Assembly (NCBI RefSeq): GCF_022201045.2
Contig: NC_068559.1
Span: 22,823,501 to 22,887,500 of the forward strand
Length of the DNA: 64,000 nt
From: Citrus sinensis
Lineage: Eukaryota > Streptophyta > Magnoliopsida > Sapindales > Rutaceae
Direction: 5' to 3'
The position numbers and the translations under genes were made by a program. Shown here piece after piece: positions 4,247 through 50,967 of the stretch; the first letter of the stretch is position 1; every line of letters starts with the position of its first letter. The notes under the pieces were generated by a model. It did not search any database and was not told the origin of the DNA. It worked only from the letters and a program-made list of their open reading frames with translations.

Positions 4247-4255
4247 CAATTTGAG

Positions 4256-4302
4256 GGACATGGCTACCATGCAGGGCATAAAATCCCTGTATGGTGCAGG
4301 GG
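4256..4302 (+). repeat. Left terminal inverted repeat of the MULE
   Basis: It begins GGACATGGCTA immediately after the target duplication CAATTTGAG (4247-4255). It matches the reverse complement of 14007-14056 at 16 of the first 21 positions. Further in, both ends share a CAGGG...CCCTGTAT hairpin and an AGGGG block. An 11-bp perfect palindrome (arms 4314-4324 and 4334-4344, 9-base loop) follows just inside. Confidence 0.88.
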
Positions 4303-4344
4303 CCAAACTTGAGCCGTTGGATTCAGCTTGTTTGAATCCAACGG

Positions 4345-5148
4345 TTGTGGTTTTAATTTAAAAAAAAGAGAAAAAATGAACAAAAACAGGAAAAAAAATA
4401 AGGCAACCGATTGAATCAAAAGCATTTTCTCCTCCCTTCCTCTCTTTCTCCCTCCCTTTCTCCCCCCAGAACATTGAGTAGAACTTTGTCGTTCCCCACA
4501 CTATCACGGTCTCGTTCTTGGTCACTCTCTCACTCCGGCTCACACTCTCGCTCCCGCTCTTGCTCACACTTAGGCTCCTATTCTCGTTGTTGTTGTTGCT
4601 GTTGGTCTTGGCTTTTCTTCCAACTCACACTCACGCCCGAACTTGCTCTCACTTTCGCTCTAGCTCCCGGCTTCGACTTTCACTCTTCTTATCAAGGTTA
4701 CTTAACTTTAAACTTAGCCTTGTATTTGTTAAAATGATTTAGACCTGTAATTTGTTATATTTTGGGAAAACGATTTGTTAATGATATAGTGCAGAAATAT
4801 AATGCTTACATAATATTTGACAAAATGCCACAAAGAACTATAGAACTATTTTTCATCTTTTAAGATAATAGGTTTTTTTTTTTTGTTGACAAAATGCTGT
4901 AGCCGTGTTTTCAAATTTTTTTTATAATAATTCGATGATGAAAAAAATTAGACTTGGCCATTCGAGTGTGGTAGCTTTGTGTGATAGTTTGGCGGATGCA
5001 TTCGTTTGATGCAAGATGCATTTCGATTAATGCCCATCGCACGTGTGAGGTGTGTTTTGGTGTGATAGGCACCGTCGCACCTAACACGTGTGCGAGAGGC
5101 AGTAATTGTTGTTTATTAATTGCTTTCTTGTAGATTTTACAAGAAGAC
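4345..5148. other. Left subterminal region and presumed leader of the ULP1-like gene
   Basis: This MULE segment contains a strongly pyrimidine-rich tract on + (4425-4690, CTCNCN-type repeats) and then AT-rich DNA. It is placed where the promoter and 5' leader of the ULP1-like gene would be expected. The open frames across the pyrimidine tract are low-complexity Ser/Leu/Arg strings and are not taken as genes. Confidence 0.5.
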
Positions 5149-8100
5149 ATGGAATCTGTTGATGGTAAGAGGAAAAAATCGAAAGAAAAATCATTACGGC
5201 AGGAAAAGCAAGCAGTGAAAAAAAAAGCACGGATATATTATTTGTAAGTATAATTTATATGCATTTATGTACCCATTATGTTAAAAGGTTCAATTTTTTT
5301 AATTAATGTAACTTAAAATATTGATCACAGTAAGGCAGAAGCAAAACGACTAAGGCTATTAGGGGTAGAAAATGTGGATAAAAAGGTATGTAGAAAAAAA
5401 AATGACCTGCTGGATATTCAATTTTCTCTTGCCTAAAATGATATGCCACTGATCGTATATATATTATCATTGTTGTAGGTTAGAGCTGATATTGCACAAA
5501 ATTGGAAGAAACTAACCCCTAAGGAGAGGCATCAATGGATGGTTAGTAATATGAATGAGATATCTAGCTCAAATAGTGGTACGAGTAAAAATATTAAGGA
5601 ATCTGATGAGGAGAAGACTGATGGTGGCAACCTTCTATCTCGATGTCGTGTAGCCTCATTCTCCGATGTGGTTTCATCTTTTTCAAGTGACCAACAAGTA
5701 GCAGTGAATGAAACCGGCTTAGGAAGTCTACTTGACCTAAAATGTGGACCTTAAGACAAGAGTTATGTGCAGCACTAATTGAACAATGTGATGTAGGTAG
5801 GCAAAATATAATTCTACATGGGAAAGAATACAATTTAAGCCCTATAATGTTTGCAACTATAATGGGGGTTAGAGATGGAGGCACACGTGTGGACTTAAAT
5901 GACCAAGCAATTGATATAACTAATTTGCGTGTAGTGTATAGTAGTGGAAAAAAAGGCTAATGAATACTTCAACTTCTGATGATGAATTTAAGATAATTTT
6001 TAGTCTTTTTGCGTTGGGAACCATATTATGTCCCACATGTGCAATATACATTAATCCGTTGTATCTTCGTGCACTGAAAGATATAAATTCAATTAGAGAA
6101 AAAAATTGGGCTAGTTGGTGCTTTACATTTTTATGGGAAGGTGTGCAAAAGTTTAAAGACTATAAAGTTAGCTCCGTTAGCGGCTGTGTTCTTTTCTTAA
6201 AGGTTCGTATTTAATTAAGAAAAAATATATTGTTGCTTGTTTCTTGTATTTTGGTTATTTCAATCCATAACATACGTACTTTGCCATTGATGGACAGTTG
6301 TTCTACTTTTCCTCCGTTGTATATGATCGACCTTCTATTGATAGAACAATGTGTTCTATCAGTGCGTGGAATAATGATGAGATTCGACGATTCTTGAAAT
6401 AACAAAAAAATCTTGGTGGCATCAAAAGCAATAAGGTATAAAATACATGCATACTATTTTAATGAAATCAATTACCATATTTTTGGACTAAATTGTTATT
6501 ATTTTATGAATTATTTTAGGTTTCGATGCGTGACCCTGATCGGTTTCATAAGCCTGAACAAGCAGAACCTCCTAGGTGGAACAATGCGAATAATAATGCT
6601 TTTCAGTTACTAATGGAAAGGTTTGGGTCATTCGTCGCCCAAAACAAAAAGTCGTTCCAAACCATTGAACGGAGATTGGAAAACATAGAGAAAATATTGG
6701 GAGAGTTGACATCAAAGTATCACGGAGGATCAAGCAAACAATCAGTTGCTCCCGATCCACCTTCAAATTTGAAAAGTCAAAATCGTACATCTCCGGATGG
6801 AAAAACAATGTCAAAAACTGAAGGGAAAATGATTTTGGTCAATGATTACGACACCGTGGATCGTAGAGTGAAAGCAAGTTTACGAGCCTTTAATGCTATG
6901 CTGGGCTGTATTGGGACTACTGCACATATTAGTGAAACTCTGCTCGATTCATTTCAATTTGATAGAGGACATGATCTCCATCTAACACCAATACCTCGAG
7001 AGGAGGGAGAGATTTGTCTAAGCGATCTTTAATTGTAATTTAGTTTTAATGATAATGAATTAATTTTGACCCTGGACATATATAGAATTTAGCTGAACCA
7101 CTTGACACTAAGCAAGAGTTCCAGACCTCCAGACCTCCACTAGCATGAGCGTACCAGCAACACGACCAGCACAGAACAGAAGGCCGGGACGATACCAACT
7201 CTCTCCTTATGATAAAGTGTCTCGAGGAGCGAATGCTAAGTTTAAAGCTGGTCCTTTCTATGTAAATAACCCCCTTTCTCTTGACCAATTGAAGCTCATT
7301 CAATATGCATTTAATAAAGGTGGTAACGGAAGGTACTTGTGGTTTATAGGGCTTTGTATTTTTTATTCCCCTGTACATATATATTGATTAGCTAACACTT
7401 TATTACTTGTTTATGTTTTCAGCGAAATTATTGTCTCTACTGATGATCAATTTATCTCCAGGCATAATTTCATGAGCCTTTTGCCTAACACGGATCTAAG
7501 TGGAGAGATTTGTAGTGTATTGGCACTCACATCATCGTACTATATGTTTGGATGCCTTATTGCAAAATTAAATACTAAGTTGTCACTTATTGACCACTGT
7601 TTTAGATTCTCACCATGATAGCATATCACCTCACACTATATGAACAGGCTAAACGCAATGATGCACCAATAAACTGGTATTTACTGACAATATATGCAGT
7701 AAGTATCCACCACTATTATTTCTATGTGAATTGAAGTTGTTTATCGATAATAATTTTTCAAACATTGCTCTGTACAAAAAGATTTTTTTCAATACTTGTG
7801 CATTTATTAACATATCACTTGTTTACTTATTGTTCTTTTATAGCAATCAGCACTTATCGTTGGAGCCGACGTTGATGGTTTTGCACAAGTAGCAAGTGTC
7901 AGAAAACCTTTCATGCAAGACTTTCAAAGGTGCCAAAAGGCTACTTTCTACAATCTCAACTGATTACAATTTTACTTTTTGTAAAACATCTTCTATGAGA
8001 AAAATACTTATTTTTGTTTGTTAGATTTATGTTCCAATTATCGATGGTGACTGATTTTTTTTGTTAGATTTATGTTCCAATTAACGATGGTGCTTTTCAT

Positions 8101-8803
8101 TGGTTCCTGTTCATCGTGAATGTCAAAGAAGGCTATGGTGAGGTTTGGGATCCTCTTCCTGATGGTCGAAGTAATCGAAAACGCGAGCAACAAGCTGAAC
8201 GCATAGTATGTTACATGTGTATATGTCATTCATCAATTTGGTGTAGGTTTTTATTATTCATTAATCTAATTTGCCATTTAGATTTGAACTTCGCAGTTAC
8301 ATTCTCTTGATTCCATTTTTCATTCTAAGTTACCTCCAAATGCCAAGCCATCAACACGATTCATTTGGTTCCTTATTCAGTCTGGTGAGGGGGTTCTGAA
8401 ACAACCAAATGGGTTTGATTGTAGAATCTATGTCATCAAATTCATGGAGACTCCAGGGCTCATTCCTAACAAATCATATATGGTAACAATTAAAAATTTT
8501 AATAGAGACATTTTAACTGATTGTCTCCTTATTGTATTGATCAAGTAAAACAACTTATTCCAAAATATTCATCATGCGTAGCATGATTCCCAAGATGTCC
8601 GTGGAAGACTAGCAGTTCAACTTATCGGCTCAGCCTTTAATGAAGCACGAGCTGGATTGCTTGCTCAAGCAAACGTCACATTTGCTGAATATACTACCCA
8701 GGCAAGAGTCATACCGTCTACGCTGAAGGCAAACACATATAGAATAGGTGCGAAAGCTCCTGGGAAAAGTCAGAAAAAAAACCCAAAAAGATTACAATCG
8801 TAA
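5149..8803 (+). pseudogene. ULP1 (peptidase C48)-like gene captured by the MULE, degenerate
   Basis: Spliced blocks encode a basic Lys-rich N terminus (from the ATG at 5149), a middle region typical of plant transposon-borne ULP1 proteins (5480-6400), a coiled segment (6526-7032) and a C-terminal cysteine-protease domain. The catalytic features are visible: His and Asp in HWFLFIVN...VWDPLPD (about 8098-8165), and Gln...Asp-Cys in KQPNGFDCRIYVIKFME (about 8400-8450). The last exon (about 8580-8803) ends in a Lys-rich tail. ULP1 proteases cleave SUMO conjugates; a role in transposition is unproven. Reading is broken by a frame change near 5750, another at the A-run near 5950, a stop near 6399 where an exon should continue, and a likely frame conflict near 7130. 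The Gly usually following the catalytic Cys is Arg. These breaks point to a pseudogene, although unusual splicing could bypass some of them. Confidence 0.75.
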
Positions 8804-9606
8804 ATGTTAGGTCTTCTTCATTGGGTTCGTGTGAAATTCCACATTTTGTTGTAGGTTTAGCTGTGGAAACATAATTGTTCATTTTGTGCACTGACTTTTG
8901 TGGTTTATCACTAACATTGTTCTGATTAGTGTATTCAAATTAGTAAATGTCATGAATACTACTTCGAAGACACGCACTCTATTTGTATAATATATTTTTT
9001 AGGATGACATAACACATATTACAATTGTGACGATTGATTCCCTTCAATATTGCAGGATTTAAAACTATCCAAATATAAGACAAACACATTGGTTAAAAAT
9101 TATCCAAATACATTAAGCATGATGAGAATGATTTTTGTAAACCCATTTGATGATAAAACAGTTGAAAATGATGGCTTTTGGAGTGAGAAAGAGAAAATAT
9201 GAAATAGTTTGAGATAGAGAAAGATATCCGGTTTGCCGAAAGGGCAGGTCGGATTCGGCCAGCCGGTTTTCCGGTTTCGTTCCAGAGCTCTCTGGAACGA
9301 ATCCGGTAAATCGTTTGGCGTGATCCGGTAAGCCGGATTCGTTCCAGAGCTCTGTGGAACGAATCCGGCCTTCCGATTTCGGCCAATTGGTTTGCCGATT
9401 TCGTTCCAGAGCTCTCTTGCTCGAAACTAGCTATCCGGTTTGATAAATCTACACGATAAACGGCTTTGCATGTGATTAGAAGTGGTATATCAGTTTATCT
9501 TTGGAAATATTTTGCATTATAATTAAATACATCGTTAAAAAAAACTTCAATTAAATACATGTCTTTCGAATAGTGAAAAGCTTCAATTAGATACATTACA
9601 TGTTTT
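8804..9606. other. Intergenic junction between the converging MULE genes, with a palindromic island
   Basis: The two genes' 3' ends face this segment. 9230-9440 is GC-rich compared with its surroundings and is built from repeated GTTCCAGAGCTCT and CCGGTTTNCCG motifs. One perfect palindrome has 12-bp arms TTCGTTCCAGAG/CTCTGGAACGAA around CT (9276-9301). A second has arms GGATTCGTTCCA/TGGAACGAATCC (9336-9367). A third, half-palindromic copy lies at about 9399-9417. Such hairpins could act in bidirectional termination or small-RNA production; that is inference. Confidence 0.8.
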
Positions 9607-12064
9607 CTAAGTAGTGAAAATAATTGTCTCCAGGGCACATATCAGAGTGCATGGCGGGATATGGAAGAAATGTGAAGGTATTACTTCCCATCGATGGTGG
9701 CATTGATGAATTATTGCACAAGTGATCTGTGGATTCAGAGCACGGTTGAGAACTACTCCCACATTCATTTTGGGTTCAATTTCATATGAGGCTTCACTGT
9801 TGTAGAATGGAAAATGTTCACTCGAGCTAGCTAATATAGATGTACCCCAACTGTCGTTGTTAGCAACATTGGCTTCGCTACTCCTGCAATTAATCAATTG
9901 TGAATAAAACTTAATACTGAGACCAGAAATGGATCAAACAGTCAAAGACAAACATAAAAACATATTAAATACCTCGCGCTATTACTGGCAATAGGACAGC
10001 TTCTTGCTGTATGGCCAGGTTGTCTACAAACGCTACACTTCCTGTTGTTTGAAGGGAATTTTTTTAATCTTGTCGCAACCTTTTTGTCATGACCACAACT
10101 GGATCTAGTACTATGGATTTTGTTTGTGGATCGTATACAGAACTTTGAGGGCAAGTTCTCTGTCCTCCAAACAGTTCTTGAAATTTTGATGTCAATTGAT
10201 TGATCGCAGCTAAAGCTTCTTTATACGAGTGCTCGTTTTTTGCCGCATAGAAACACATTTTGTTAGTTGCGGTGCTCAAAGAACTGAATCTAGCAACATC
10301 GGAAATCTCACTATCAACTTGTGATCGGGCTAAGCTGCACGATGTATAATCCTTTGCCTTTTTTGTCCACTGATGAAGAATCATATTATCAGGAATATTT
10401 CTAAATTGTTCCACTTTCATGACATGAAACATGTGTCGACATGGGATTCCAGCAGAATCCATCATTTGAAAAGAGCAATCGATTTTGTTAGTGGGTTTAT
10501 TATATACCACTGTCCACTTTATGTCTACGTTCCTAAATTGTGTTAGCGTGTAGTAGTTAGTATCAGTGCAGTTCAAGGCTTCAAACTGAATCAAAGTGGC
10601 TTCTTGACGAATTTCTTCCCTAATCCAATGAAATATTCTAATTGGAAAAACATTTGTAGCATGCTTTTCTAGGCTGCGTAAGTGTGTGGTCAACACAGGA
10701 GTACTAAATTTTGTTTTAAACTCATCTTGGACTTCGGTGGTCCGAATGTTGTGGAGTAAGCGATCAATTTGTAGCACAAATTCATATAATTTTAACATGT
10801 ACTGCAGAAAACGATTGAGATAACAATGAATACTTTTACACCGTTGAGTGCTTCGCATACCAGCAAAAAATGTTCCTTTAAGAAAAGCTTCGGCCCATTT
10901 ATGTCGCTTTGCATACATTTGTTTAACCCAACCATGTTCGTGTAGCTTAAACTCATCAACTAAAGAAAACCACCGCTGGTCAAATTCACCTGCACTCATG
11001 CCTGTCAACATAAGATCACAGAATTTACGAGTGAAGTCTTCATTTTTAATATTTGCTTGTGCATTTTTCTCTAAATGCCAGCAACAAAGATGGTGCGTAG
11101 CTCCAACAAAAACTGTCTTAATTACCTTTGACATTGCTTTATCGCCATCAGTAATCACGGACTTCGGCTTTTGATTACCCATAGCAGACAAAAAAATTTG
11201 GAGTAACCATGTGTATGATTCAACGGTCTCGTCGCCCAATAAGCCAAATCCAAAAACTGTAGTCCTATGATGACGGTTAGTGCCAACAAGGGTCACAAGT
11301 GGTTTTTGATATGCATTAGTTTTGTATGTCGCATCAAACACCAAAACATCACCGAAGCATTCATAATCATACCGTGCCATGTAGTCGGTCCAAAACAAGT
11401 TTCTTAACCTATTTTCATCATCTAATGTGTACTCATGATATAGATCAGGATCATTATCAGATTTTGCCGTGAAATATGCTATAGTTGCCACGGAATCAGT
11501 ATCACCAATTTCAGCACGTCTATCTGCATCTAATATATTTTGTAAATCCTTACGCTTGAACCTGAGATTATGTGAACCCCTAACTTGATCACCCATGTAA
11601 TCCACAACTTGGCATGTCTTCACGCCAACATGCCTCAATGCCTTAGCTTGAGCAAGATCTCCTTCACTAACATGCCGGTGTGAACGAAGGAGATGTACTT
11701 CATTCGGAGAAGTCAACGGATGATTGTGCTCAGTTTTAAATTCTGTCACAGTATACTTGCCACTGGAATTGTCGTAATTCACTCGAAACGATGCTTTACA
11801 ACCCGTACGCGTTATTGGTCGTGGTTCCCGCACTCTATTATCATTTGCCAAATATTTTTCAGCCATATATCCTTCCAAATTACAAACCCACCGACGGATC
11901 ATGGTTTGTCCAGACTTGGAACGACGAAGCTCATTTTTTCTAACACTAAAACCAACCAATCTTAAATAGTTCATGTACCATGCATCTGCATCTTCTACTG
12001 AATCAAACTGAGCTCCAAGTACATTGGTCCAAGGTAACTTAAGATTATCAGAGGATTTACTCAT
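9607..12064 (-). CDS. FAR1/FHY3-Jittery-type MULE transposase, frameshifted near its 3' end
   Basis: The 666-codon main exon (10064-12064, ATG at 12064) has a FAR1 DNA-binding zinc region (about residues 25-115; C61, C89, H113, H115), a MULE DDE core and a SWIM region (about 523-550). D244 (VFDATYK) and D306 (ITDGDKA) are present. The position of the usual Glu in the RSTQRSES-type motif is Lys410 (RSTQRCKS). The SWIM finger shows C530-S-F instead of Cys-x-Cys, followed by C542 and H544. The reading frame then ends at LRQD, while a CCHC knuckle (CSVCRQPGHTARSC) lies just downstream in the -1 frame. This fits a one-base loss in an A-run near 10080. The knuckle exon ends at 9973 and splices in frame to 9883-9607. 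Transposases of this type cut and paste the element in the nucleus; this one is probably inactive. The neighbouring ULP1-like gene converges on it. Confidence 0.88.
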
Positions 12065-12496
12065 CTGTAAATCTTGAAAGGTAATAGCACGAAATTTGAC
12101 AAAACAAATAAAATACAGTGATCAAAATACAATGACAATGGGTATATTTTTAAAAATCAATCCACATTCATCCAACACCATTTTAATGTCATTCATATAT
12201 TAAAAAATAAAAACAAAATTGATATAAAACAAATATTTAAGTCATAAGAACTTACTTGAGGAACAACACTGAGATTTTGCAATGGCTGAAATTTGCACTT
12301 GTAGTAGCTATGCAGGCGAAAGAAAATGTTGATCCAAGGTGAGTGAGTTATGGTAGGTAGGTGGCATTTAAAATGGAAATATATATATATATATAGGTAT
12401 ATTTATGAAGGAAGGAACAATGCCATTAATTGGTTCAATAGTGAGTGAGTTATAAATGCAACAATAAATATACTATAGAGTAGGTGAAAAAAATTA
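12065..12496. other. Transposase 5' leader and promoter region
   Basis: AT-rich DNA lies between the transposase start codon and the minisatellite. It carries a short TATA microsatellite near 12382-12394. A 5' leader intron is possible (an acceptor-like sequence near 12070 on -), but nothing decides it. Confidence 0.4.
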
Positions 12497-13690
12497 TTAC
12501 ATTTCGAAAATATGTACATGGAACATTAAACAACAAACACGAAACATCTTACTTAAAATATGCAACCGCGAACATAAAATATGAGTACATCGATAACATT
12601 GAACACACAACAACAAACATGAAACGTAGTGTGCAAACATGAAACGCGGAAGGTAAACATGAAACGGGGGCAAAAGAGAAAAATTTCGGGGTATTTGAAA
12701 AATTATTATATGGAACATTAAACAACAAACACGAAACATCTTACTTAAAATATGCAACCGCGAACATAAAATATGAGTACCTCGGTAACAGTGAACGTAC
12801 AACGTCAAACATGAAACGTAGAACAACAAACATGAAACGTAGAACAACAAACATGAAACGTAAACATGAAACGGGAGAAAAAAGTAAAATCTTAGGGTAT
12901 TTGAAAAATTATTACATGAAACATTAAACAACAAACATGAAACATCTTACTTAAAATATGCAACAACGAACACAAAATATGAGTACCTCGGTAACAGTGA
13001 ACATACAACGTCAAACATGAAACGTAGAACAGCAAACATGAAACGTGGAACATAAACATGAAACGTGGAACGTAAACATGAAACGTGGAACGTAAACATG
13101 AAACATGGGAAAAAAGAAAAATTTTGGGGTATTTGAAAAAATATTACATGAAACATTAAACAACAAACATGAAACATCTTACTTAAAATATGCAACAACG
13201 AACACAAAATATGAGTACCTCCGTAACAGTGAACATACAACGTCAAACATGAAACGTAGAACAGCAAACATGAAACAGGGGCAAAAAAGAAAAAAATTTG
13301 GGGTATTTAAAAAATTATTACATGAAACATTAAACAACAAATATGAAACATCTTACTTAATTTTTGCAACTGCAAACATAAAATATGACCACGTCTGTAA
13401 CAGTAAACTTACAACATCAAACATGAAATGTAGAACAACAAACATGAAACGTAGAATATCAAATATGAAACGTATAACGTAAACATGAAACGGGGGCAAG
13501 AAAGAAAAATTTTGGAGTATTTGAAAAATTGTTACATGAAACATTGAACAACAAATATGAAACATTTCACATAAAATATGCAATAAAGAACATGAAATAT
13601 GAGTACCTCTGTAACAGTAAATAAGAAAATCAAACATGAAACGAGAGCAAATCGAAAAATTTTGGGGGGTTTAAAAAATAATTATATGAA
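12497..13690. repeat. Minisatellite array in the right subterminal MULE region
   Basis: At least six diverged units can be aligned on the landmark TGCAAY, at 12561, 12753, 12959, 13191, 13365 and 13579, giving unit lengths of 192, 206, 232, 174 and 214 bp. Each unit has GGGGTATTTGAAAAATTATTA, a CATTAAACAACAAACATGAAAC block and a variable number of short AACATGAAACGT sub-repeats, which explains the length variation. Long open frames on both strands here arise only from the absence of stops in the repeat. The array sits between the transposase promoter and the right terminal repeat. Confidence 0.9.
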
Positions 13691-14006
13691 ACATAAAACA
13701 TAAAATATGAAACTTGAAACGTTAAATATGAGACATATTTCATAGAAAATAAATTAAACTTTTGTCATTATGTTAACATACATTTTACTTTGTTTTTTAA
13801 ATTATTTTTAATAAAAAATATTTTTTCTATTTTTACTTTACTTATCTTTTTTTACTTTTTATTATTATTATTTTTTTAAATTTATTTATTTTTATATTTT
13901 ATATTTTAATTTATTTAAATAAAAAATACATATTAATGACAGCAAGCGGCTTTCGATCATAAAAATTATTTGTGGCAGCCAAACAACTAGGGGGTCAACA
14001 AATTAA

Positions 14007-14056
14007 CCCCTTCTAGGATACAGGGTCAACAAAGTCCCTGTATCATAACCGTGTCC
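14007..14056 (-). repeat. Right terminal inverted repeat of the MULE
   Basis: The end reads ...CCGTGTCC on +, directly followed by the target duplication CAATTTGAG (14057-14065). Its reverse complement starts GGACACGGTTA and aligns with the left end, with small gaps in the hairpin loop. Confidence 0.88.
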
Positions 14057-14065
14057 CAATTTGAG

Positions 14066-14939: not shown

Positions 14940-17900
14940 ATGGTGAGAGAGCAGCAGAGGCCGGAGAGTGAGGCCGTGCGAGAAGATCATAAGCCGATGA
15001 AGCGGGGCCGGAAACGGAAGGTTTTCGAAGAGAGGAAAGAGAATGGGGTTAGTGAAGTTGGTGTTGAGGATGGAGAGAGTGTGGTGAAAAGTGAAGGGGA
15101 AGCTGGGGAAAAGGGGGAGCACAAGGAAAGTATGGATATTGTGACTGAGAAAAAAATAGAAATCGGCGAAAGCGCCGAACGCGAAAAAGACATTGGGGAT
15201 TCTGAGGACACAAAGGGTTCGTTGAGGAAGAGACTGAGAGGCGGTAGGAAGAAAGTGAACTACAGTGAGTATGCATTTGATGAAGAATTTGAAGAAGCTA
15301 TACTTGGAGAGACGAGGAAGAAGAGAAGGGGAGGTCGAAAGGGGAAGAAGAATTCCACTGCTGAGGATGAACAACACTTACGACAAGAGAATGATGGAAA
15401 TAAGGAAGACAATGAAGGAGTGGTTATTAAGAAGAAGAGAATGGGAAGTCAAAAGGGGAACAAGAATTCCACTGCTGAGGATGAACAACACTTGCAACAA
15501 GAGAATGGTGGAAATAAGGAAGACAAAGAAGGAGTGGTTACTAAGAAGAAGCGTGGCAGAAAGAGTAATAAGAATGGGAAAGTGAAGGAAAATGGGAGTG
15601 GAGAAGGTGTGGATTTACAGATTGCTGAAGGTGAAGCCAAAGAGGAAAAAGTGAAGGATGAAAGTGCCGGTGATTTGGATCGCGTGGAGCAGGAGAAAGA
15701 TTCTTCACAAAGAGATGATGTGCGTCGTTATGCGCTGAGGGCTTCAAGAAACCGAAATGAGCAACCTGTGTTGAACAATTCAAAGAAAAATAAAGTAAGA
15801 AACTTCTCCTTTTTGTTTGCAGTGGTGGCGGTGTATTCCTTTTTTTTTTTTTTTTTCCCTTTACTGTTTTTTATTGTAGATTTAATTGTGTTTTTTATAT
15901 GATATTTTACAGCGGATTGATGGGAATTCATTGATGTGCCATCAGTGCCAGAGGAATGATAAAGGCAGGGTTGTTCGGTGCAATAAATGTAACACAAAGC
16001 GTTTTTGCATCCCATGTATAACCAATTGGTATAGCTACTTTACTTGCAGTCAACTTTGTTGAACCTACTTTTCTTGCAAGCAGATGTTTGACTTGTTGAA
16101 TTTGTGTTTTGGTTTATGTCTTTGCATTTACTGAATTTTGTTTTTCAGTAACCTAGTTTTCATAGGAATGATTTGTATCACATTTTGGGTTTGTGAGTGG
16201 TTGCTAAGAAAGCAACTCTGAATGCGCCATTGTTGTGAGAAATGAATAATGGAAGGTAACTAGTGCACATTGCTTTCATGCTTTTGAGCTTGGATCTTTA
16301 GTCTGTTGTGTATTAGAAGAAGTGTATGTCTTAATTGAATTCCTTCTTTATGGTCTAACTTTAGTTTATGGAAGAGTATGATGAAACATAGATCTAGTTA
16401 ATTATACTTTTGATTTAAATAAGCTGGTTTGGAACTATGAACATTATATGGAATGCTTTAATATTCCCACTGCATCACAAAGCAAATAAAGGCTTTTTCT
16501 TCTCAAGTCAGATACTTGTTGCTGTCAAATTTTCCTATCAATGTTACAATTTGGAGTCTTACATCTCATATTTGTTGAAAATTTGCAGTTTGGCAAACAG
16601 AAAAAGATTTTAATTGTTTTAATTCACCTGCGATGCAATATCTGATGCTATTTAAGTACCGAGATGTATCAATGTATTATATGTTTAAGCTTTATGGAGA
16701 TTTCTAAATTGGTTCATTGTGGGCTTTTATATTTTTTTTTGTACTCTTCGTTGTTCTTGTTCTCGCAAAAACATCATTGCCATTTTTCTCCTTCATGTCT
16801 TCTAGGTATCCTAAAATGTCAGAGGATGAAATTGCCGAATCTTGTCCGGTTTGTCGGGGTAATTGCAATTGCAAGTCCTGTTTACGCATGGAGGGAGTAA
16901 TAGCAGTTAGTTTTGCACATCATGCTCAATTCTTTTGTTGATTTGATGTATTTTCTGTACAAAATTTGATAATTGTTGTTTATACAGGATGCATTGAAGG
17001 AATTGAAGGCGGGCCCAAAATTTACTAAAGCCGAGAAAGTTCAGCACTCTAAGCGTTTACTCCAAGCACTTCTCCCTTACATTCAAAGTCTTCATGAAAG
17101 GCAAATGAAAGAGTTGGTGATGGAGGCCAAGATACAAGGTATTAGGATGATTTAGATTTGATACTTATGTAGGAACTGTTTTTTGTTTTACAAATCTGGT
17201 ATTTTAAAATTAGAGCTTGTAGACATTGCGTCATGTGAATTAATTATCCGTATCAGAAGTCATTAAGGTTTTGCTTAAAACCCTTGTCTGACCTAAATAA
17301 GAAAAATGTCTTTTGGTCTCCAGTGTGCGGTTAAATTTTCATTCTTGAAATACCTTCACTACTAACGTCAAATTCACTGAGCCCTCAATTCTACTTTTTT
17401 CCTTCACAAAACATCAGGCTTGACTCTTAACAGTCCTAAAAGATCCAGCCTTTGAGAAGTGAATCCTTATTACAATGACCATTATTGGATATAGAAATCT
17501 ACTGCATATAACATTTTCTCTGGCTGTCTATGCTCTTTGCTTCTAGTTTGCAACATGATTTGGCTTCCATTTGCTTCTTAGACATTTTAGTCGGCTAAGG
17601 AAACTCCTGTAGTCTTGGAGGGGTTTCTTTTAGATTTTGTTTAGAAGCTGTAATATAGTTTCTTTACTTCAAAGAAAAAGAACAAGTAAAAAATAGTGAC
17701 ATGCTGTCCACAGTAGCAAGTTTCTCTCCTTGGTAGTTTAAAAATGATGGATATGATTTTCTAACATTTCATTCTCTCACAATTCTGATATTGAGCAGGT
17801 CTATCAAAATCAGAAATTCAGCCGCGGAAGGCAGTTTTTCGCCGTAATGAGCGTGTTTACTGGTAAATAATTGTGCCTTAGCTAATTTTTTTAAAAGGAT

Positions 17901-29897: not shown

Positions 29898-31511
29898 TCA
29901 AAGACCTTTCATATCGTAGAAACAAGGTTCTTGATTTTCATGATCGACATCAAGTTTCATTTGACTTGCTATAAAATTTAGCATGGCGTAAATATTTTTG
30001 GAATCAGGATGAGTTTCATCATGGGCTATAAATCTATGGAGGTTTCCAGACATCTCTACAAAGCTCCAGCCAGGATACTTCTTCACTCCTCTCGTCTCCA
30101 TGGCTTCTCTAGTTGTTCTTGCTTCATCCCAGCGTTTGAATATTGCATAAACATTCGATAACCCGACGTACCTACCATCATGATCTGGCTGTAACTCGAC
30201 AAGTTTCTTTCCGACTATTTCTGCAAGATCTAATTTACCATGGTTCATACACCCAGTAAGCAGAGAACCCAACATTGAAGCTGTTGGCTCCAATGGCATT
30301 TGACATATGAATTCATATGCCTCCGTTACTTGGCCTGCACGCGATAGAGCATCAACCATGCAAGCATAATGCTCACTCTTAGGTACCATGCCACGTTTGC
30401 CGAGACTCTTGAAGAAATACCAAGCTTCCATTACCAAGCCTCCATGGGCACAAGCACTCAACAAGCCCAAGAACGTGATCTCATCCGGCGTTATTCCAAC
30501 AATTTGCATTTCCGTAAACAATTCAAGCGACTCTTTAACAAATCCATGCATTGCAAGCCCTCCAATCATGGCATTCCATATCAAAACATCGCTCTGATGC
30601 TTTTCAACCCCATGAAACACAATCAAAGCCTCCTTAATCGCCCCACACTTGGCATACATGTCAATAAGAGAAGTTTGCAAAGGCAAAGTCAACGACAGGC
30701 CCTTATCAATCATGTACCGAAGCATCATCCTCCCTTGATCAAGTGCACCTAAATGAGCACAAGCACACAACACACTCACCAGAGTCACCTCATTGGCCTT
30801 CGAGCCAACATCTCTCATTTCCTCAAAGATCACCAGAGCCTCTTTATAATCCCCACACTTAACATACCCATCAATCAGAGCACTCCATGACACAACATTC
30901 CTCTCTGGCATCAACTCAAACACTTGTCTTGCCATATTCATTTCCCCACACTTAGCATACCCATCCAACATGGAATTCCAAGAAACCGACATCTTCGTAG
31001 GCATTCCATCAAACACCTCGCGCGCATGCACTATATCGCCGCAGGAGCCATACATATGTATCAACGAATTCGAGATAAACAAATCAGACTCGTACCCAGT
31101 TTTTGCAATTTGGGCGTGAACTGCCACAGCAAGCTCTCGCTTCGCAAGGCGCCCAGACGCCTTTGCAAGAAATGGGTATGTTAAATGGTCGGGCGAGACC
31201 CCAGCTCGCAACATTTTGACAAACAGAGAGATTGACTTGTTAGGGTTCTTGCTCTTCGAGTAACCTCTTATGACAGTGTTCCAGTAAAAGATTCTTGGGT
31301 TTGATAAGTGCGACAAGACTTTGCACGAGTAATCAATGTTACCCAAATACGATAATGCAGAAAAGGAAAGCATTCTTGACACAAACGGGTCATCTTCAGA
31401 GAGACCAAGAGTGATTAACAGAGCCTGAATTTGTTTTAGCGAATGCATAGATTTGCATTTATCGAGGAGGCTGATAAGAACTTGGCTTATTTTGACATTT
31501 TTACATAACAT
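29898..31511 (-). CDS. Pentatricopeptide repeat protein, PLS class, E subgroup (At5g08305-like)
   Basis: A single 537-codon exon with ATG at 31511. PLS-type repeats run through most of the protein (for example ISNSLIHMYGSCGDIVHAREVFDGMP, VSWNSMLDGYAKCGEMNMARQVFELMPERN, VSWSALIDGYVKCGDYKEAL). They end in an E-type tail (YVGLSNVYAIFKRWDEARTTREAMETRGVKKYPGWS, then HRFIAHDETHPDS). There is no DYW domain. Proteins of this kind bind specific organelle transcripts, usually for C-to-U editing, and work with a separate deaminase. The N terminus (LLDKCKSMHSLKQIQALLITLGL) is the usual start of PLS proteins. Absence of introns fits the family. The resemblance to Arabidopsis At5g08305 is from memory; the organelle target is unknown. 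Confidence 0.92.
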   Translation of the reverse strand: MLCKNVKISQVLISLLDKCKSMHSLKQIQALLITLGLSEDDPFVSRMLSFSALSYLGNIDYSCKVLSHLSNPRIFYWNTVIRGYSKSKNPNKSISLFVKMLRAGVSPDHLTYPFLAKASGRLAKRELAVAVHAQIAKTGYESDLFISNSLIHMYGSCGDIVHAREVFDGMPTKMSVSWNSMLDGYAKCGEMNMARQVFELMPERNVVSWSALIDGYVKCGDYKEALVIFEEMRDVGSKANEVTLVSVLCACAHLGALDQGRMMLRYMIDKGLSLTLPLQTSLIDMYAKCGAIKEALIVFHGVEKHQSDVLIWNAMIGGLAMHGFVKESLELFTEMQIVGITPDEITFLGLLSACAHGGLVMEAWYFFKSLGKRGMVPKSEHYACMVDALSRAGQVTEAYEFICQMPLEPTASMLGSLLTGCMNHGKLDLAEIVGKKLVELQPDHDGRYVGLSNVYAIFKRWDEARTTREAMETRGVKKYPGWSFVEMSGNLHRFIAHDETHPDSKNIYAMLNFIASQMKLDVDHENQEPCFYDMKGL

Positions 31512-32078
31512 TGTTTTTTGAGAGCTTAGATAGACTTTTTACGTAACATTGTCTTATTGAGATTCGGTTCAGTCAGTTATTTCTGTATAAGAACGGAGAC
31601 GGCTATAAATTCTCTTTCATCTAAATAGTATTGACTGATCCGATTCCAAAATAATCATAGCTATTTTCTTCCAACCAAATATGGTGGTCATTTAGTTTGA
31701 AGAAATATGAGGAGAGGAGAGGAGAGGAGAGGAGAAGAGAGGAGGCGAGGAAAAAAAAAATAAAGGAGAAAAATGAATTCCTTATTCATCCAAAAATCAA
31801 ATTAATTTTCTTTTTCACTCATTTTTCCTCTCCTTTTCTTTCTATTCTTCTCCTCTCCTACCATTTCTTCCGACCAAAAAATGGACTTAGGATAAATTAA
31901 ATTCCAAAGGTGGGCGTGAAATATTTCATTTAAAGAATTGTATACAAGCAGGTGTCTTTTTTTCCTTAGTCTACATAGGATTAAAGAAGCACCGCAATTA
32001 TATCATTCAGTATCAGTATAAGCAGTGCAGGACTTTTTTCTTTCTTTGTCTAACAGAGAAGGAGACTTCATCGATATG
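31512..32078. other. Gap with GA-rich inverted repeat
   Basis: This lies between the PPR start and the RING-ligase stop. 31709-31750 is a GGAGA microsatellite, and 31825-31860 is a pyrimidine-rich counterpart (TTCTCCTCTCC). Flanking TTCTTCCAACCAAATATGG and TTCTTCCGACCAAAAAATGG-like sequences are in direct orientation, so the whole could be a degraded foldback element, but no target duplication is clear. The 3' UTR of the ligase also falls here. Confidence 0.45.
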
Positions 32079-44599: not shown

Positions 44600-47137
44600 T
44601 TATTCTGATGATATAGTGGGTCGACTTCTACCTTCGTTTCCACCGTCAGATAGACTAATGGTTGGAATGCTGCCCTCTTTAATAAGATTTTTAACAGGTC
44701 GAGCAGTTCGAGTGTCTTCCGACAATTTCAATATTGCATCTCTGACTACCAAATAGTTCTTATCAAGCGGATCTGGAAAATTTCCTTCGTCAACCATCTC
44801 TTTCAATACCTCAAAAGCCAAAGGAGGGTTTAGTTCAGAAAGAAAAGCACTTATTAATGCTACAAAAACAAACATGTCAGGTTTCATTCCCTTCTCTTTC
44901 ATCATACGGAAATGAACTAGAGCTGCCCTAGGCCTATCACACTTGCAAAGACCAGTAATAAGAGCCATGAAAGTAATCCTGTTGGGTGCACATCCTTTTT
45001 CCTCCATTTCATTCCAAAGCATGATAGCATCATCAGGTCTTCCAGCAATACATAGACCGTCTATTAAAGTAGTGTAGGTAATCACATCGGGGGAGCCGCT
45101 TTCTTTTTCTAACATCCGGGAAAGACAAAGCATGGCCTGATCAATATTGCCACTTTTGCACCATCCATTGATAAGCAAGTTGTAGGTCGCAACAGAGGGA
45201 ATAAGGCCCTTTGTGATCATCTCATTGAAAAGATCCTCGGCTTCTGCAACCCTTTGGGCCTTACATAGCCCGCTAATTATTATATTGTAAGCTACTACAT
45301 CAGGGCAACACCCATGAGCACATATATCACGGAATAGCTCCAAGGCTAAATCGACTCTTTTAATATCAATTAGGCCACCTATAGCTGCCGAATAGCAAAC
45401 TATATCAGGGAGGAAACCTTCTTGAACCATGTCAGTGAGAAATCTGAAAGCTTCCATCGCTTTCCCATGTTTGCATAGCTCTTTGATAAGCAAGGTATTA
45501 TGTTTCACCCATGGTTCATGTCCTTGAACACGCATCTTCCTCACAAGATTAAGGGCTCCTACAACATCTTGTCTTCTACACAGACAACGAAACATGGAGT
45601 TGAGAGTAAAATGGGTCGGCTTAAAACCTGACTCCTCCATTTCTCTCAAAAGCTCGTAACTTTCTTCCAGCCTATTTGAATTGCATAGCCCATCAATTAA
45701 ATTGTTGTAAAGGAAAACATTTTGCATACAGCCAATTTGAGTCATTTCTCTGAAGAGGCTTAGGGCCAGATCCAGCTTTCCATCCTTCAGTAAAGTATTA
45801 ATTACAATATCAAAAGAAGAGGTGTTTGGGGAAACTGTTCCCTTAAAGATCATGAGCATTTCCACCCCAACATCAGCAATAGGTTCGCCCTTGATCATGG
45901 CCTGAAGCAGATTATAAGCCTGATCTATTGAACCATTGCTGACAAGAATCCTCATGATAGAATTACAAAGGAGAGTCATAGTATTGACATCCCTGTCCTC
46001 CCAGATTTCTTTAACTAACAGGGTCAGTTCTCCTTCATCAGAACAAGAAGTTATAAGCTTTGAAAGTATCTCAAAATCAGGTGTAATACCAGATCCCCTC
46101 ATTTCCGAGTACAATTGCAATGCCATTTCAAGTTGTTTATTCTTACAGAGCCCTCCAATTATCACATCATACATAGCAGCATCAGAAGCAAAACCTGATT
46201 TCGTCATTTTATCAAACAGCTGCAAGGCCTTATCTACTCTAGATTTCTTCACAAACCCATGAATCAACACGCAGAATGTCTTCTCATTCAATCTAATATT
46301 GCAATCATCCATTCTTTCAATCAACTCACATGCCTTATCCACCTCACCCCACTTACTAAAAGCAACCAACAAGATAGAAAATACATGTTCATCAACCCAC
46401 CCGTGATCAATAATCTCATTGAAAACACTCAAAGCTTTATCAAACTGGCCAGAATTGCAATAAACCTGCAATAGGGGCGTCAGCGTGTATTTATCATAAC
46501 CCCACCCGTAATCTTGCATTTCTTTCAATCTCATCTCAACTAAGTCAACTGAACAAGACTTACACAAAGCCTCTAACAGACAATTATAGCTATAATTATT
46601 CGGAACGCAAAGACCTTCTCTTTTAACTTGATCAAACAACATGTTAGCTTCTTCAACCAACCCTACACTACCCAAACACCTAATCAAAAACCCCAAAGCC
46701 CCGGGGGACATAAAACACCGGGATTTCACGACATCCTGAGCCAAAACTCTGAGTGGGGGAATCCGTCGAGCACGTGATAGGATCGACGCCATGGCATTGT
46801 AAGTATATATATTGTGTTTATACCCACGTTGGACTGAGGCCCAGGCAAAGAAAAAGTTTGCTAATTTCCAGCTCCTAAACTTATTCAACACATTTTCAAC
46901 AACTTTATTGGTGAGCTTTGGTGAGAGATCGATCAATTCTGGGTTATTTGGAGAGAAGGGTTTCTTGGCGAAGATAGAAATGATTTTGTCAGTGATTTCA
47001 AAGGCATCTGACGGAAGAGTATTGTTGTTTTGCGAATTTGAGCAAATGGGTCTTTCAAATTTTGTGCCGAAATAAAGCTCTTTGATCGAGTTGTAAAAGT
47101 TTCTAGGGGCAGGTACTTCAAATTTTGACAGAGCCAT
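44600..47137 (-). CDS. Pentatricopeptide repeat protein, P class (At5g08310-like)
   Basis: A single exon of 845 codons from the first in-frame ATG (47137). The frame stays open a further 12 codons upstream without an ATG. About 18 P-type 35-residue repeats fill residues 100-800 (for example YNIIISGLCKAQRVAEAEDLFNEMITKGLIPSVATYNLLINGWCKSGNIDQAM). A Ser/Phe-rich N terminus with few acids could be a mitochondrial presequence. There is no E, DYW or SMR domain. P-class proteins bind organelle RNA and act in its processing, stability or translation. The Arabidopsis counterpart suggested from memory, At5g08310, is the numeric neighbour of the one suggested for the PPR gene at 29898-31511. That would mean conserved gene order. 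Confidence 0.93.
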   Translation of the reverse strand: MALSKFEVPAPRNFYNSIKELYFGTKFERPICSNSQNNNTLPSDAFEITDKIISIFAKKPFSPNNPELIDLSPKLTNKVVENVLNKFRSWKLANFFFAWASVQRGYKHNIYTYNAMASILSRARRIPPLRVLAQDVVKSRCFMSPGALGFLIRCLGSVGLVEEANMLFDQVKREGLCVPNNYSYNCLLEALCKSCSVDLVEMRLKEMQDYGWGYDKYTLTPLLQVYCNSGQFDKALSVFNEIIDHGWVDEHVFSILLVAFSKWGEVDKACELIERMDDCNIRLNEKTFCVLIHGFVKKSRVDKALQLFDKMTKSGFASDAAMYDVIIGGLCKNKQLEMALQLYSEMRGSGITPDFEILSKLITSCSDEGELTLLVKEIWEDRDVNTMTLLCNSIMRILVSNGSIDQAYNLLQAMIKGEPIADVGVEMLMIFKGTVSPNTSSFDIVINTLLKDGKLDLALSLFREMTQIGCMQNVFLYNNLIDGLCNSNRLEESYELLREMEESGFKPTHFTLNSMFRCLCRRQDVVGALNLVRKMRVQGHEPWVKHNTLLIKELCKHGKAMEAFRFLTDMVQEGFLPDIVCYSAAIGGLIDIKRVDLALELFRDICAHGCCPDVVAYNIIISGLCKAQRVAEAEDLFNEMITKGLIPSVATYNLLINGWCKSGNIDQAMLCLSRMLEKESGSPDVITYTTLIDGLCIAGRPDDAIMLWNEMEEKGCAPNRITFMALITGLCKCDRPRAALVHFRMMKEKGMKPDMFVFVALISAFLSELNPPLAFEVLKEMVDEGNFPDPLDKNYLVVRDAILKLSEDTRTARPVKNLIKEGSIPTISLSDGGNEGRSRPTISSE

Positions 47138-47881
47138 TGGAGCAAAAGATTTTGCAACCCGCTTAACTTCCAACGTTTACAACGTTACAGGAGACTAAGG
47201 GGCAGGCAAAAATAAAATATTAGTTTGATTATTTTACTTTTTATTTCCTTTAACAAACAATTATGAATTTGTGATGATAATCTATTAATCTCACCAATAA
47301 AGGTTTTCTTTTTTTAAAAAAGAAAAAAAAACTCTTAAGCTTTTTAAATTTTTTTTGACAGGTTTGGTGATCCCATAATAAATCTACAAATTTTTAATTT
47401 TTAAATTTTGTAAAGCTATATAAATGAAAATTTTCTACACAATTTTCACCACACCAGTGAAAGTAGTTCTGCCGCCATAGAAGCATTTGCTTGTTTTTCT
47501 GTTCACTAATTAACAATAGTTAATCGATGAATATTGGAATAATTTTTAAGAATAAAAATTTTGAAATGTATAGTATCAATATTCTCATTTGTGCTAGTGT
47601 CATATAATTGAGATTAATTATTTTAATTTTTATTCTAATCACCCATCCAAATTGTACTTACAAGAAATTTAAATCAGCACGTAATTTATCCAAAGAAAAA
47701 AAGAAGAAATAAATAGATATAAATTTTATGTTGTTGATCATAAAGTGGATATTAATAAAAAAAATTTCTTTAATTAGTAAAAGTAAAAGAGATAATCTAT
47801 TCATATGCACCCAATAACCCCCGAAATAACGTAAAATGAAAAGCAGAAGGCAGCTTTAATCAGCATGCTTAGCTGCTTGAT
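47138..47881. other. Intergenic gap
   Basis: AT-rich DNA between the PPR start and the oxidase stop. It should carry the PPR promoter and the 3' UTR of the oxidase gene. Nothing else is recognised. Confidence 0.5.
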
Positions 47882-49633
47882 CTACTTAACTTGAAACCAC
47901 ATAGAAGGGCTAGGGATTCCCTTAAGAACGACAGAAAGCATATAGTAGCCAGGAGGAGCAATATTTCCTGACGGTGGCATCGCAACAACAACTTCATGTA
48001 CTCCAGGGTACACATCGTCCTTGATCTCGATAATAGCCAATTCAATAAGCCTCTGGTTCATGGAAATAGAATGTGTGACGAACGGTGGTGCAATCATTGT
48101 CACCATCAAATCAAATTCGTTCAGCATCTCAGCTGACTTAACCTTAATTCCCACCCACTTGCCGTAGGGGGCAGCCTTTTCGGTTTCGTCGACCAAGATC
48201 ATTGGTCTTCTGTCAGCCAATTCGGGAGCCAAGTAAGGAGGGCTGAATTTCTCAAGACGGAGCTCCGTTGGGAATTTCGCCCATTCTTGGTACCCGTCGT
48301 TGTCGTTGCTGCCACCGACGAACACTCTTCCGTCAGGTAGCAAATTGGCTACCGAATGGTACATTCTTGGAATGTCAGACGGGGCCAACTCTGTAAACCT
48401 GGAGCCCGGTGGTTTGCTGGGCTTGTACAACAAGGGTTTGAAGCAAGGCTTGTCCGCATCCTTCCATCCTGCTGATCCAAGCTCAGCGCCGTTGATGAGC
48501 AGCACATCACCAGTCGGGAGCAACACTCCGTCTGACATAACCCTCGGTGTCGGCATCTTCTCCGTCGTCCAAACTGGATCTGGGCTTGTTACCACCATTC
48601 TGGCACAGTCATCCAACGCGGGTACGAGTCTTTTCTCCACCTCTCCGAAGTAGAAAGCCTCGGGCACTGACCCACCACATATCAGCACTTCCGCGTCGAC
48701 TCTAGCGTAATAGTCTCGGTAAAGCTTCAGCGGGAGGAGAACGGAAGTTGAGGTGGAAGGATAGTTACGTGCTCCACCAGGGAGCGGTGGGTACTCGCGG
48801 AGGACATAATTAGCCCTCGGATCAAGCAAGATAGAACGGTTGTTGGCGAAGATGTAAAGGTTACCGTCCGGGACAAGGTAGACAAAAGGGTACAAATTGT
48901 TCTCAAGTCTGAAGTCGTCTTGGCCTGGTCGCCTGTACAAGTCATAAGTGTCTCTAAGAAACTGAAAGGGGATGGAATATGCGTTTTCTGTTCTTTCTGC
49001 TGGGATATATTCGTAGCTGAAGGAATCACGACCACCAAAGATAAGGAAGTTACCGTCAGCTAACAAAACCTGAGTTGCATACCATCTGCCATCTTTAAGT
49101 GCTGTTGGATATTCAGTCCAGTCGCACGTGGGGCAACCCCAGAGGTACCTTGTTGTTCTTGATCCTCCGAGGAAACCTCCAGTGCTAATCAAGTTTCCAT
49201 TAACATCCAGACCTCCCGAAGAGCACCAAGTGTCGGTGATCACCTTAAGCGGTGTAACTTGCAACGTGTTAACGTTATAAAATACGGAATGGCACCAACA
49301 GTCAATATTGGTGACATTGGTGGCTTTATTTTGGTGCATAGGACAAGGCCTTTTGTAATCAGGCAATGGAAGCCTTGATATTTGCCAAACCGTGGCATCG
49401 AATATTACCATCTCGTCAACATTCGGAAGCAAGACTGAGTGCATAGCTGAAATCCCCGGATTGTTAGGCAACAACTCCCATTTGCCGAGGAAGTACGGTG
49501 CCGGGTCATCGTTAGCAGCAGCCGATGCTTGATGCCCTGAAACTAACAGGAGAACTGCTAGAATGAAGACGAGTTTACTGGTAGCTGCCATTGCTATAAT
49601 TAACAATGGCAGATTAGGAATAGAAAGGCTCAT
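47882..49633 (-). CDS. GLOX: Aldehyde (glyoxal) oxidase-like copper-radical oxidase, secreted
   Basis: A single exon of 583 codons from ATG 49633; a second ATG at residue 15 gives a more usual signal peptide (MAATSKLVFILAVLLLVSGHQASA). The GLOX N-terminal Kelch-like domain spans about 60-310, and the C-terminal DUF1929-type domain about 470-582. The copper-radical centre is intact by motif: Cys137 (DTWCSSGG) with Tyr185 (RWYATQ) as the likely crosslinked pair, Tyr425-His426 (RMYHSVANLLPDG) and His521 (FVTHSISMNQR). Such enzymes oxidise aldehydes or sugar alcohols in the cell wall and release hydrogen peroxide; the substrate here is unknown. Length and absence of introns fit plant members. The upstream DNA contains a duplicated segment of about 280 bp. 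Confidence 0.92.
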   Translation of the reverse strand: MSLSIPNLPLLIIAMAATSKLVFILAVLLLVSGHQASAAANDDPAPYFLGKWELLPNNPGISAMHSVLLPNVDEMVIFDATVWQISRLPLPDYKRPCPMHQNKATNVTNIDCWCHSVFYNVNTLQVTPLKVITDTWCSSGGLDVNGNLISTGGFLGGSRTTRYLWGCPTCDWTEYPTALKDGRWYATQVLLADGNFLIFGGRDSFSYEYIPAERTENAYSIPFQFLRDTYDLYRRPGQDDFRLENNLYPFVYLVPDGNLYIFANNRSILLDPRANYVLREYPPLPGGARNYPSTSTSVLLPLKLYRDYYARVDAEVLICGGSVPEAFYFGEVEKRLVPALDDCARMVVTSPDPVWTTEKMPTPRVMSDGVLLPTGDVLLINGAELGSAGWKDADKPCFKPLLYKPSKPPGSRFTELAPSDIPRMYHSVANLLPDGRVFVGGSNDNDGYQEWAKFPTELRLEKFSPPYLAPELADRRPMILVDETEKAAPYGKWVGIKVKSAEMLNEFDLMVTMIAPPFVTHSISMNQRLIELAIIEIKDDVYPGVHEVVVAMPPSGNIAPPGYYMLSVVLKGIPSPSMWFQVK

Positions 49634-50967
49634 GTTCTTGAACCACCAATTTCACATATTTATACCGCGACTTGCTACCATTTTTAGTCAATCGGCACGG
49701 ACACTAACGAATTAACAAAACCAACTTTTAAACACCTAACAATAGGTATGGTTACATAATTATTAGTTGAAACTTGAAAGAGTCATATCTCTAATTTTTA
49801 TTTTTTTAATCATAGATTTCTTTCTTTTATTTAACAAATGAAAATTGCATCCACACACACACATATATATTGAGAAGATATTGGGAAAAGAAAAATTGTG
49901 TTATTAAATATTTCAATTTCTTATTTATATTCAGGAATAGTTGATGAGAAAAAAACACATTGATAAAATAGATTTGAATAACCAAACTAAAGTGCGTCAC
50001 TAAAAGCTTTATACAAGTTTTCTTTTTATCGAAAATTCATAAATGTTAGTTACAATTATTTAATCAAAATCATCAAAACCCTAATAAAAAAGAACTTGTA
50101 GAATGTTAGGTGTTAAAAATTATATTTGGGTTCTGCTCACCGATAACTTTAAAAAAATATAAAAAGAGTGGGTTCTGTTCACCCTTGCAAGAACTAATTT
50201 TCTTCATTCCTTTGGTCTCTACAAGCATGAATTCTAAGAATTACAATGGAAGCAACTGACTGCTGTGATCAGCTTACCATGAAGAAATGTGCAACTGACA
50301 CACTGATATATTAGCTTGCAGATAAACCTGAATTGTTCAATTTTGCTTGCCACCACATTATGTAATTTAATTTGCAGCATGGTACTCATTTTGTTTCACT
50401 TTTGTAACTTATTCTTTATTGTGCGATAGGATTTTGTTACAATTGCATTCACTAACATGATTATAGGTTAAGAAGATATTTGGAAAGAATTTTTTTTTTT
50501 TGTTTTTTAAACAATTCAATTTCTTGTTTATATTTAGGAATATTTGATGAGAAAAAAACACATTGATAAAATGGATTTCAATAATCAATTAAAGTGCATT
50601 GTAAAAGCTTTGCACAAGTTTTCTTTTTAACTTGTGGAAAATTTATGAACATACTAGCTACAATTATTTAATCAAAATCATCAATCCCTATAATTCTAAG
50701 AAAATCATGAAGAACTTGCAGAATATTAAGAGTTAAAAATTATACTTCGGGTTTGTTTACTTTTAAAAAATATAGAAAATAGAGATAGAAAGAGAGTTTT
50801 TTCTATTGTGTTCTATACTTTTATGTATAAACTAAGTTAACTTCCATAAACATAATGTTGATTGATGACATTCGCTCTGCCGAAACTTAATTAGATATGA
50901 AAAAGATGACTAATCCAAGTTTGATAACCAGATGAAACAACTATTTACCTCTTCACTCTACTTAACG
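49634..50967. repeat. Oxidase upstream region containing a duplicated segment of about 280 bp
   Basis: The segment at about 49873-50140 recurs diverged at about 50471-50755 in the same orientation. Shared blocks include GATGAGAAAAAAACACATTGATAAAAT, the stretch around ACAAGTTTTCTTTTT, and ACAATTATTTAATCAAAATCATCAA. About 330 bp of unrelated sequence lies between them. The duplication is in the presumed promoter side of the oxidase gene. No coding sequence is seen. Confidence 0.85.

Follow-up and report, generated by a model that had tools for sequence, protein, structure and literature searches.

An old copy of a recently mobile FAR1-type Mutator-like element family in Citrus sinensis, with a two-gene cassette and a one-sided motif array

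The VANC proteins of Arabidopsis contain a DUF1985 domain, to which an Ulp1 domain is added in the KIU type (PMC5735166, PMC13317346), and Ulp1 is present in some VANCs (PMC13317346). Mutator-like elements (MULEs) carrying Ulp1, including Jittery-like ones, have been described from grapevine and melon (PMC2528002), and the Jittery/FAR1 group is characterised by a FAR1 domain at the N terminus and a SWIM or CCHC domain at the C terminus of the transposase (PMC6446971). Moreover, MULE insertions made up 31 of the 40 spontaneous structural changes in a study of sweet orange (PMC9832951). Here, we describe a MULE of 9,801 bp at positions 4256-14056 of a 64-kb stretch of Citrus sinensis DNA (contig NC_068559.1; hereafter the window, meaning the whole stretch analysed). 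The element is an old and decayed member of a FAR1-type MULE family that has been mobile recently and has a two-gene cassette. The most telling part of this family seems to be a one-sided array of a short motif, which occurs in all 24 copies studied and which an earlier note on this DNA did not mention.

As the earlier note had claimed, the element is bounded by a perfect 9-bp target site duplication, CAATTTGAG, at 4247-4255 on the left and at 14057-14065 on the right. The duplications stand directly outside the ends, of which the left starts GGACATGG and the right finishes CCGTGTCC. Both ends start GGACAYGG, and their inverted arrangement could be confirmed, though it is weak (local score 29, reached by none of 2000 simple shuffles). 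The 9-mer is not rare, as it occurs five times forward (the two duplications included) and twice in reverse in the window, and therefore the case for the element rests on the family and not on the 9-mer alone. In one assembly of 299.7 Mb, the end pattern gave 45 exact matches and a closely similar pattern, with up to two mismatches allowed, gave 70, while the reversed patterns gave none. Among 28 clear end pairs, counted by eye, 24 copies with both ends (window included) were taken for study; their selection was based on the ends, without regard to the array, and the pairs at C3:20.05, C3:20.91, C4:5.40 and C8:15.66 Mb as well as single ends were left out. Perfect 9-bp duplications, as expected of the MULE superfamily, flank 21 of the 24 copies, window included, and all are mutually different. 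The copies at C5:14.8, C9:7.6 and C9:26.7, whose duplications agree at eight of nine positions, at seven of nine or not at all, stay in all counts. Together with the end-pattern counts, these differing duplications make the boundary call convincing. A search with the joined flanks of the insertion matched, in this assembly, only the two sides of the insertion itself.

The copies at C1:19.7 and C4:26.1 Mb, which lie on different chromosomes and have different duplications, share 99.96% identity over 5.1 kb. Furthermore, two gene-less subfamilies of four and three copies show 98.8-99.9% identity to the query copy over about 5 kb. Thus, the family has moved recently. Gene-less copies outside the two subfamilies are more divergent. 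The window copy is older than the recently moved ones and shares 95.1-95.5% identity, over its left half, with three copies whose genes are open (C1:19.7, C2:27.9 and C4:26.1 Mb; hereafter the open copies). By tblastn (E 1e-5), nearly full-length matches to both proteins were found in five of the 24 copies. The copy at C9:26.7 matches 583 of 726 transposase residues and 268 of 866 residues of the second protein, the copy at C8:14.9 matches the transposase only (210 of 726 residues), and the remaining 17 match neither. Since the two genes recur between the same ends, and their pairing is seen at other loci too, the reservation in the earlier note that they might never co-occur elsewhere does not apply. 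Gene-less copies of 7-8 kb have in common a 1.75-kb interior that is 99.9% identical between two subfamilies. Among open reading frames (ORFs) of at least 90 aa in five gene-less copies, none outside the array exceeds 134 aa; no family search was made for captured host genes. In clade B, a copy flanked by a 9-bp duplication of its own, AAATTTTAT, shares 99.2% identity over 4.9 kb with a sister at C2:9.69. Clade D copies on two chromosomes (C9:2.09 and C3:18.68 Mb) show 100% identity over 6.8 kb, and this FAR1/Ulp1 lineage, which is more distant, thus appears to have moved recently too; its right end was set where the two copies diverge, and the stretches read stop short of the left end.

The array lies at 12445-13730 on the plus strand, in the interval that separates the transposase start from the right end, and stands upstream of the transposase in the gene-bearing copies. 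Its units of about 170-230 bp are less regular in the window than in the open copies C1:19.7 and C2:27.9, where they measure about 193 bp. In the window element, the 9-bp motif ACATGAAAC is found 24 times forward and never in reverse, whereas shuffles gave about 0.1 on average; 23 forward and no reverse motifs fall within 12441-13735. In the C2:27.9 copy, there are 45 forward and no reverse motifs. The array is found at the right side of all 24 copies with 15-80 motifs each, including the 17 without either gene, and it is kept in copies down to 2.5 kb. Only one reverse motif was detected, in one of the 24 copies, and no copy contains the motif in its leftmost 400 bp. Genome-wide, a triple-motif pattern gave 302 matches and the reversed pattern none; the 100 listed matches of the 302 fall into 11 clusters, of which, in a comparison by eye, nine lie by family ends and two beside transposase matches. 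Arrays are also present in the other clades. Clade B has at the same place a 185-bp unit with ACATG[AC]AAC (22 forward, none in reverse), and the units of clade D, which measure about 160 and 311 bp and are 73-80% alike, contain ACTTGAAAC (eight forward, none in reverse). These motif variants were picked after their arrays had been seen, and their shuffle means are 0.1-0.2. Dense motif arrays of one orientation in non-coding DNA, as in VANC/KIU systems, are hence a feature of all 24 copies and of clades B and D. The motif is followed by G in 15 of the 24 window motifs and by A in about four in five motifs of three open copies, a shift resembling the difference between C-type and T-type VANC21 motifs.

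The main exon of the transposase gene, at 10067-12061 on the minus strand, encodes the FAR1 DNA-binding and MULE transposase domains (FAR1, 2e-21; PF10551, 9e-28). A CCHC zinc knuckle (zf-CCHC, 3e-4) at 9945-10220 on the same strand is in a different frame from the FAR1 domain, and the window gene is broken by a frameshift ahead of the knuckle. Three other copies have an uninterrupted frame of 726 aa, in which FAR1 stands at the N terminus and CCHC at the C terminus, as judged by eye. From its domain content, the transposase belongs to the Jittery/FAR1 group, in agreement with the earlier note.

The second gene extends from 5149 to 8803 on the plus strand, convergent with the transposase gene, and is a pseudogene in the window. 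In the open copies, 12 exons and 866 aa were predicted by hand, with a central DUF1985-like and a C-terminal C48 domain. The C48-like nature that had been proposed for the window gene is substantiated by exon matches to Peptidase_C48 with 1e-8 and 0.0011, of which the second is below the Pfam cut-off. Compared with the open copies, codon 340 of the window gene is a stop, codons 81-85, 145 and 211-220 are affected by gaps, and exon 6 contains an insertion of 8 bp. A 43-bp tandem duplication at 8006-8092 (plus strand), at the start of the C48 exon and present in the C2:27.9 copy too, causes the acceptor sequence to be present twice. The 866-aa frame is free of stops in three of the five two-gene copies (C1:19.7, C2:27.9 and C4:26.1 Mb) and is broken in the window and C4:20.2 copies. 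The element had been called structurally complete, which holds for its outline of two ends and two genes but not for the genes, both of which are broken. It had also been offered as an exact definition of the family. It does provide a bounded two-gene element; however, with neither gene intact, the window copy is not the best definition, for which the three open copies are better suited.

The C terminus of the C2:27.9 protein matches Peptidase_C48 (PF02902) with 8e-19, and an Ulp1 domain as in the KIU type is thus part of the protein. Its His, Asp, Gln and Cys positions, which are the same in all three open copies, align with those residues of yeast Ulp1 (1euv) that we take to be catalytic. 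The Gly after the Cys is replaced by Arg in the window copy, and the His by Arg in the C4:20.2 copy. The central domain of 197 aa has no Pfam match above cut-off and appears to be remotely DUF1985-like. A profile of this domain from clades A, B and D aligned by hhalign with DUF1985 ORFs of the same genome over 173 columns with a score of 39.3 (E 2.9e-5, probability 74%, thin alignments). As controls, 30 column shuffles gave scores of up to 16.4, the reversed profile 12.8 and seven transposase windows 10.3-13.4, and the single clades scored 28.8 (A), 29.9 (B) and 17.7 (D). A plant mobile domain (PF10536) was considered for the second protein and rejected, being only weakly matched below the cut-off (E 0.015). 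Elsewhere in the genome, seven DUF1985 matches in a row, 1,607 bp apart, at C4:19391872-19401900 show that part of a DUF1985 gene is tandemly repeated there.

The two genes are regularly found together. The best 67 of 830 transposase candidates were scored, and their 76 matches were merged into 64 loci, which are the best-matching ones rather than all. In 42 of the 58 loci with at least 38% identity to the window copy, an Ulp1 exon is convergent and downstream within 10 kb, an arrangement with a chance of about 0.0045 per locus; three of the 58 have the exon in another arrangement, and the six loci below 38% identity have none. Conversely, a listed transposase is present within 10 kb of 45 of 67 Ulp1 exon matches. 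The more a locus resembles the window copy in one gene, the more it does so in the other (correlation of identities, rho 0.92, 41 pairs, the window's own pair left out), although the loci are related and not independent. Between clades A and B, the nonsynonymous (dN) and synonymous (dS) divergences of the transposase are 0.269 and 1.538. The Ulp1-like gene has a dN of 0.398 and a dS of 1.576 (dN/dS about 0.25) in an alignment from tblastn pieces, which possibly runs into introns in places and thereby raises dN. The dS values of both genes are alike and near saturation. Both genes thus show purifying selection between clades A and B. Convergent pairing, correlated identities and alike dS with low dN argue against repeated independent capture within these clades. 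Judging from the sequences compared, the transposase and the convergent DUF1985-like/C48 gene recur together across a deep divergence, and the pair is ancient.

We consider it an even chance that the second gene makes a VANC/KIU-like, motif-binding anti-silencing factor that serves intact and gene-less copies alike. Recent mobility, the cassette, selection and the array can be read from the sequence itself; binding of the array and relief of silencing by the second protein are what we infer from them. In such a scheme, the DUF1985/C48 protein would bind the ACATGAAAC array and remove silencing marks from its own family. Intact copies, being unsilenced, would express the transposase, gene-less copies would be kept open enough for being moved in trans, and the transposase would act at the palindromic termini. 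A wider proposal, which we put forward tentatively and at somewhat short of even odds, is that anti-silencing of the VANC/KIU type works in FAR1/Jittery-type MULEs outside VANDAL. The DUF1985-like/Ulp1 protein and the array would then have co-diverged across several clades within this genome (ACATGAAAC, ACATGMAAC and ACTTGAAAC), and gene-less copies would exploit the array to stay unsilenced and to move. If true, plant MULEs would use motifs to escape DNA methylation more widely, and not only in the VANDAL elements. The family is a ready test set for this, since it comprises intact copies with both genes, copies without genes and three variants of the motif.

The main and strongest rival, unlikely but well ahead of the others, holds that the array consists of binding sites of the FAR1-type transposase, either as subterminal repeats or as an autoregulatory promoter, and that the Ulp1-like protein acts otherwise, for instance by removing SUMO from the transposase or from proteins of the host. 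In favour of this rival are the FAR1 DNA-binding domain of the transposase and the array itself, which is close to the right terminus and upstream of the transposase gene and occurs in all 24 copies with or without genes, as required cis DNA would. However, known subterminal transposase sites usually flank both ends, and a left end without the motif makes binding by the transposase less likely, as does the resemblance of the second gene to VANC-type proteins with DUF1985 and Ulp1. An improbable variant is a VANC-like system in which the protease domain, and not binding alone, is the active step and takes SUMO off silencing proteins locally at the array; the C48 catalytic-position residues are kept in the three open copies. 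It is equally improbable that the array is a passive minisatellite and the Ulp1-like gene a captured host gene that is carried along and decays, because, although tandem repeats do expand by themselves and the gene is broken in two copies, the purifying selection between clades A and B, the recurrent convergent pairing, the array in all copies down to the smallest and the related one-orientation motifs in three clades with different repeat units argue otherwise.

Several observations weigh against the anti-silencing interpretation. A promoter of the transposase gene or binding sites of the transposase would be expected at the place of the array too, and VANC21 motifs occur in introns and intergenic parts as well, whereas the array here stands at one end. 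The 12-exon structure of the second gene is a hand prediction. DUF1985 was not found by Pfam on the second protein at E values up to 10, and none of 150 DUF1985 places (scored among 332 candidates) falls, by eye, within any of the 24 copies or within the stretches studied of clades B and D. The profile alignment reaches a probability well short of certainty from thin alignments, and clade D alone scores barely over the best shuffle. Moreover, 13 of the 58 transposase loci with at least 38% identity have no detected Ulp1 partner, 22 of the 67 Ulp1 exon matches have no listed transposase within 10 kb, and the motif comparison covers three clades only. Strict helical phasing of the motifs was also considered and rejected: a spacing of 20-21 bp is the commonest in clade A, but further peaks at 14, 35, 50, 51 and 66 bp, and at 41 and 28 bp in clade B, mean that the phasing is not clean. 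According to Sasaki and co-workers (2022), VANC specificity reportedly depends on motif density and helical periodicity, and non-autonomous VANDALs are said to matter for it.

The termini and the interior of the element have further features. The left and right ends are distinct types, and long, highly similar terminal inverted repeats as in TIR-MULEs were not found, since the leading bases are identical at five positions in the window and at up to 11 in other copies, with weak similarity beyond. The left terminal part (4256-4415, plus strand), about 160 bp common to the gene-less copies and without ACATGAAAC, consists of a terminal palindrome followed by a subterminal hairpin at 4305-4353. 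This hairpin is centred on CCGTTGGATTCA, and the clade B left end has a similar one despite different surrounding sequence. A terminal hairpin is possible in all eight ends folded. At the right end of two recently moved copies, its arms are 16 bp long and enclose a loop of three bases (z about -8); the terminal palindrome in the right terminal part of the window copy (13731-14056, minus strand) is weaker (z -2.5), and one left-end hairpin was not significant (z -1.4, 16 of 200 shuffles equally good). Between the two convergent genes, palindrome-rich 62-bp repeats occupy 9254-9417, and clade B has a different, 72-bp repeat at the corresponding place. Outside the element, the minus-strand frames at 29901-31538, 44603-47176 and 47885-49651 comprise two with pentatricopeptide (PPR) repeats and one that is glyoxal oxidase-like, and sugar-transporter exons are present at 59292-60427 on the plus strand; the element thus lies in gene-rich DNA. 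Tandem duplications at 15317-15551 (114 bp) and 56540-56772 (117 bp) are both multiples of three, and the former is inside an open frame of 326 aa without Pfam match.

The likeness to mudrA and mudrB of maize MuDR that the earlier note had drawn was examined for gene orientation, and in this part it stands, as both elements have two convergent genes. MuDR makes 9-bp duplications, as here, and has long terminal repeats, and mudrB encodes another protein than the Ulp1-like one. CitMule of clementine is a FAR1-domain MULE of about 7 kb with 9-bp duplications and short degenerate terminal repeats, which is active in a cultivar; it is set apart by description, not by sequence, as the accessible passages give a 5-exon transcript with transposase domains, report no ULP1 and describe a perfect terminal match of 17 bp, compared with 5-11 bp here (PMC4334395). 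The Jittery-like MULEs of grapevine and melon likewise combine a Jittery-type transposase with an ULP coding sequence, which in grapevine is downstream of the transposase. However, the orientation of their ULP varies and its occurrence is not limited to one clade, and the available passages of that study mention neither a motif array nor an anti-silencing role (PMC2528002).

In our literature search, no title or abstract was found to describe either arrays of this kind or a role like that of VANC in FAR1-type MULEs; the search mostly did not extend to subscription papers, and priority is not settled by it. In comparison with VANC/KIU of the VANDAL elements, the Citrus family has a FAR1-type transposase, and to our knowledge the VANDAL transposase is without FAR1. 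Moreover, the DUF1985 likeness of the Citrus protein is only remote, the array is confined to one end and the motif is unlike YAGTATTAY or AGTTGTCC. Anti-silencing, known from the VANC and KIU genes of Arabidopsis, is a proposed role for the Citrus protein. In resemblance to the Citrus family, the VANDAL elements too are MULEs with weak terminal repeats and a second gene beside the transposase gene, the encoded protein has a DUF1985-type domain, which the Citrus protein may share, with Ulp1 in the KIU type, and a short motif forms dense one-orientation tandem repeats in non-coding DNA that differ between related families (PMC5735166; PMC13317346).

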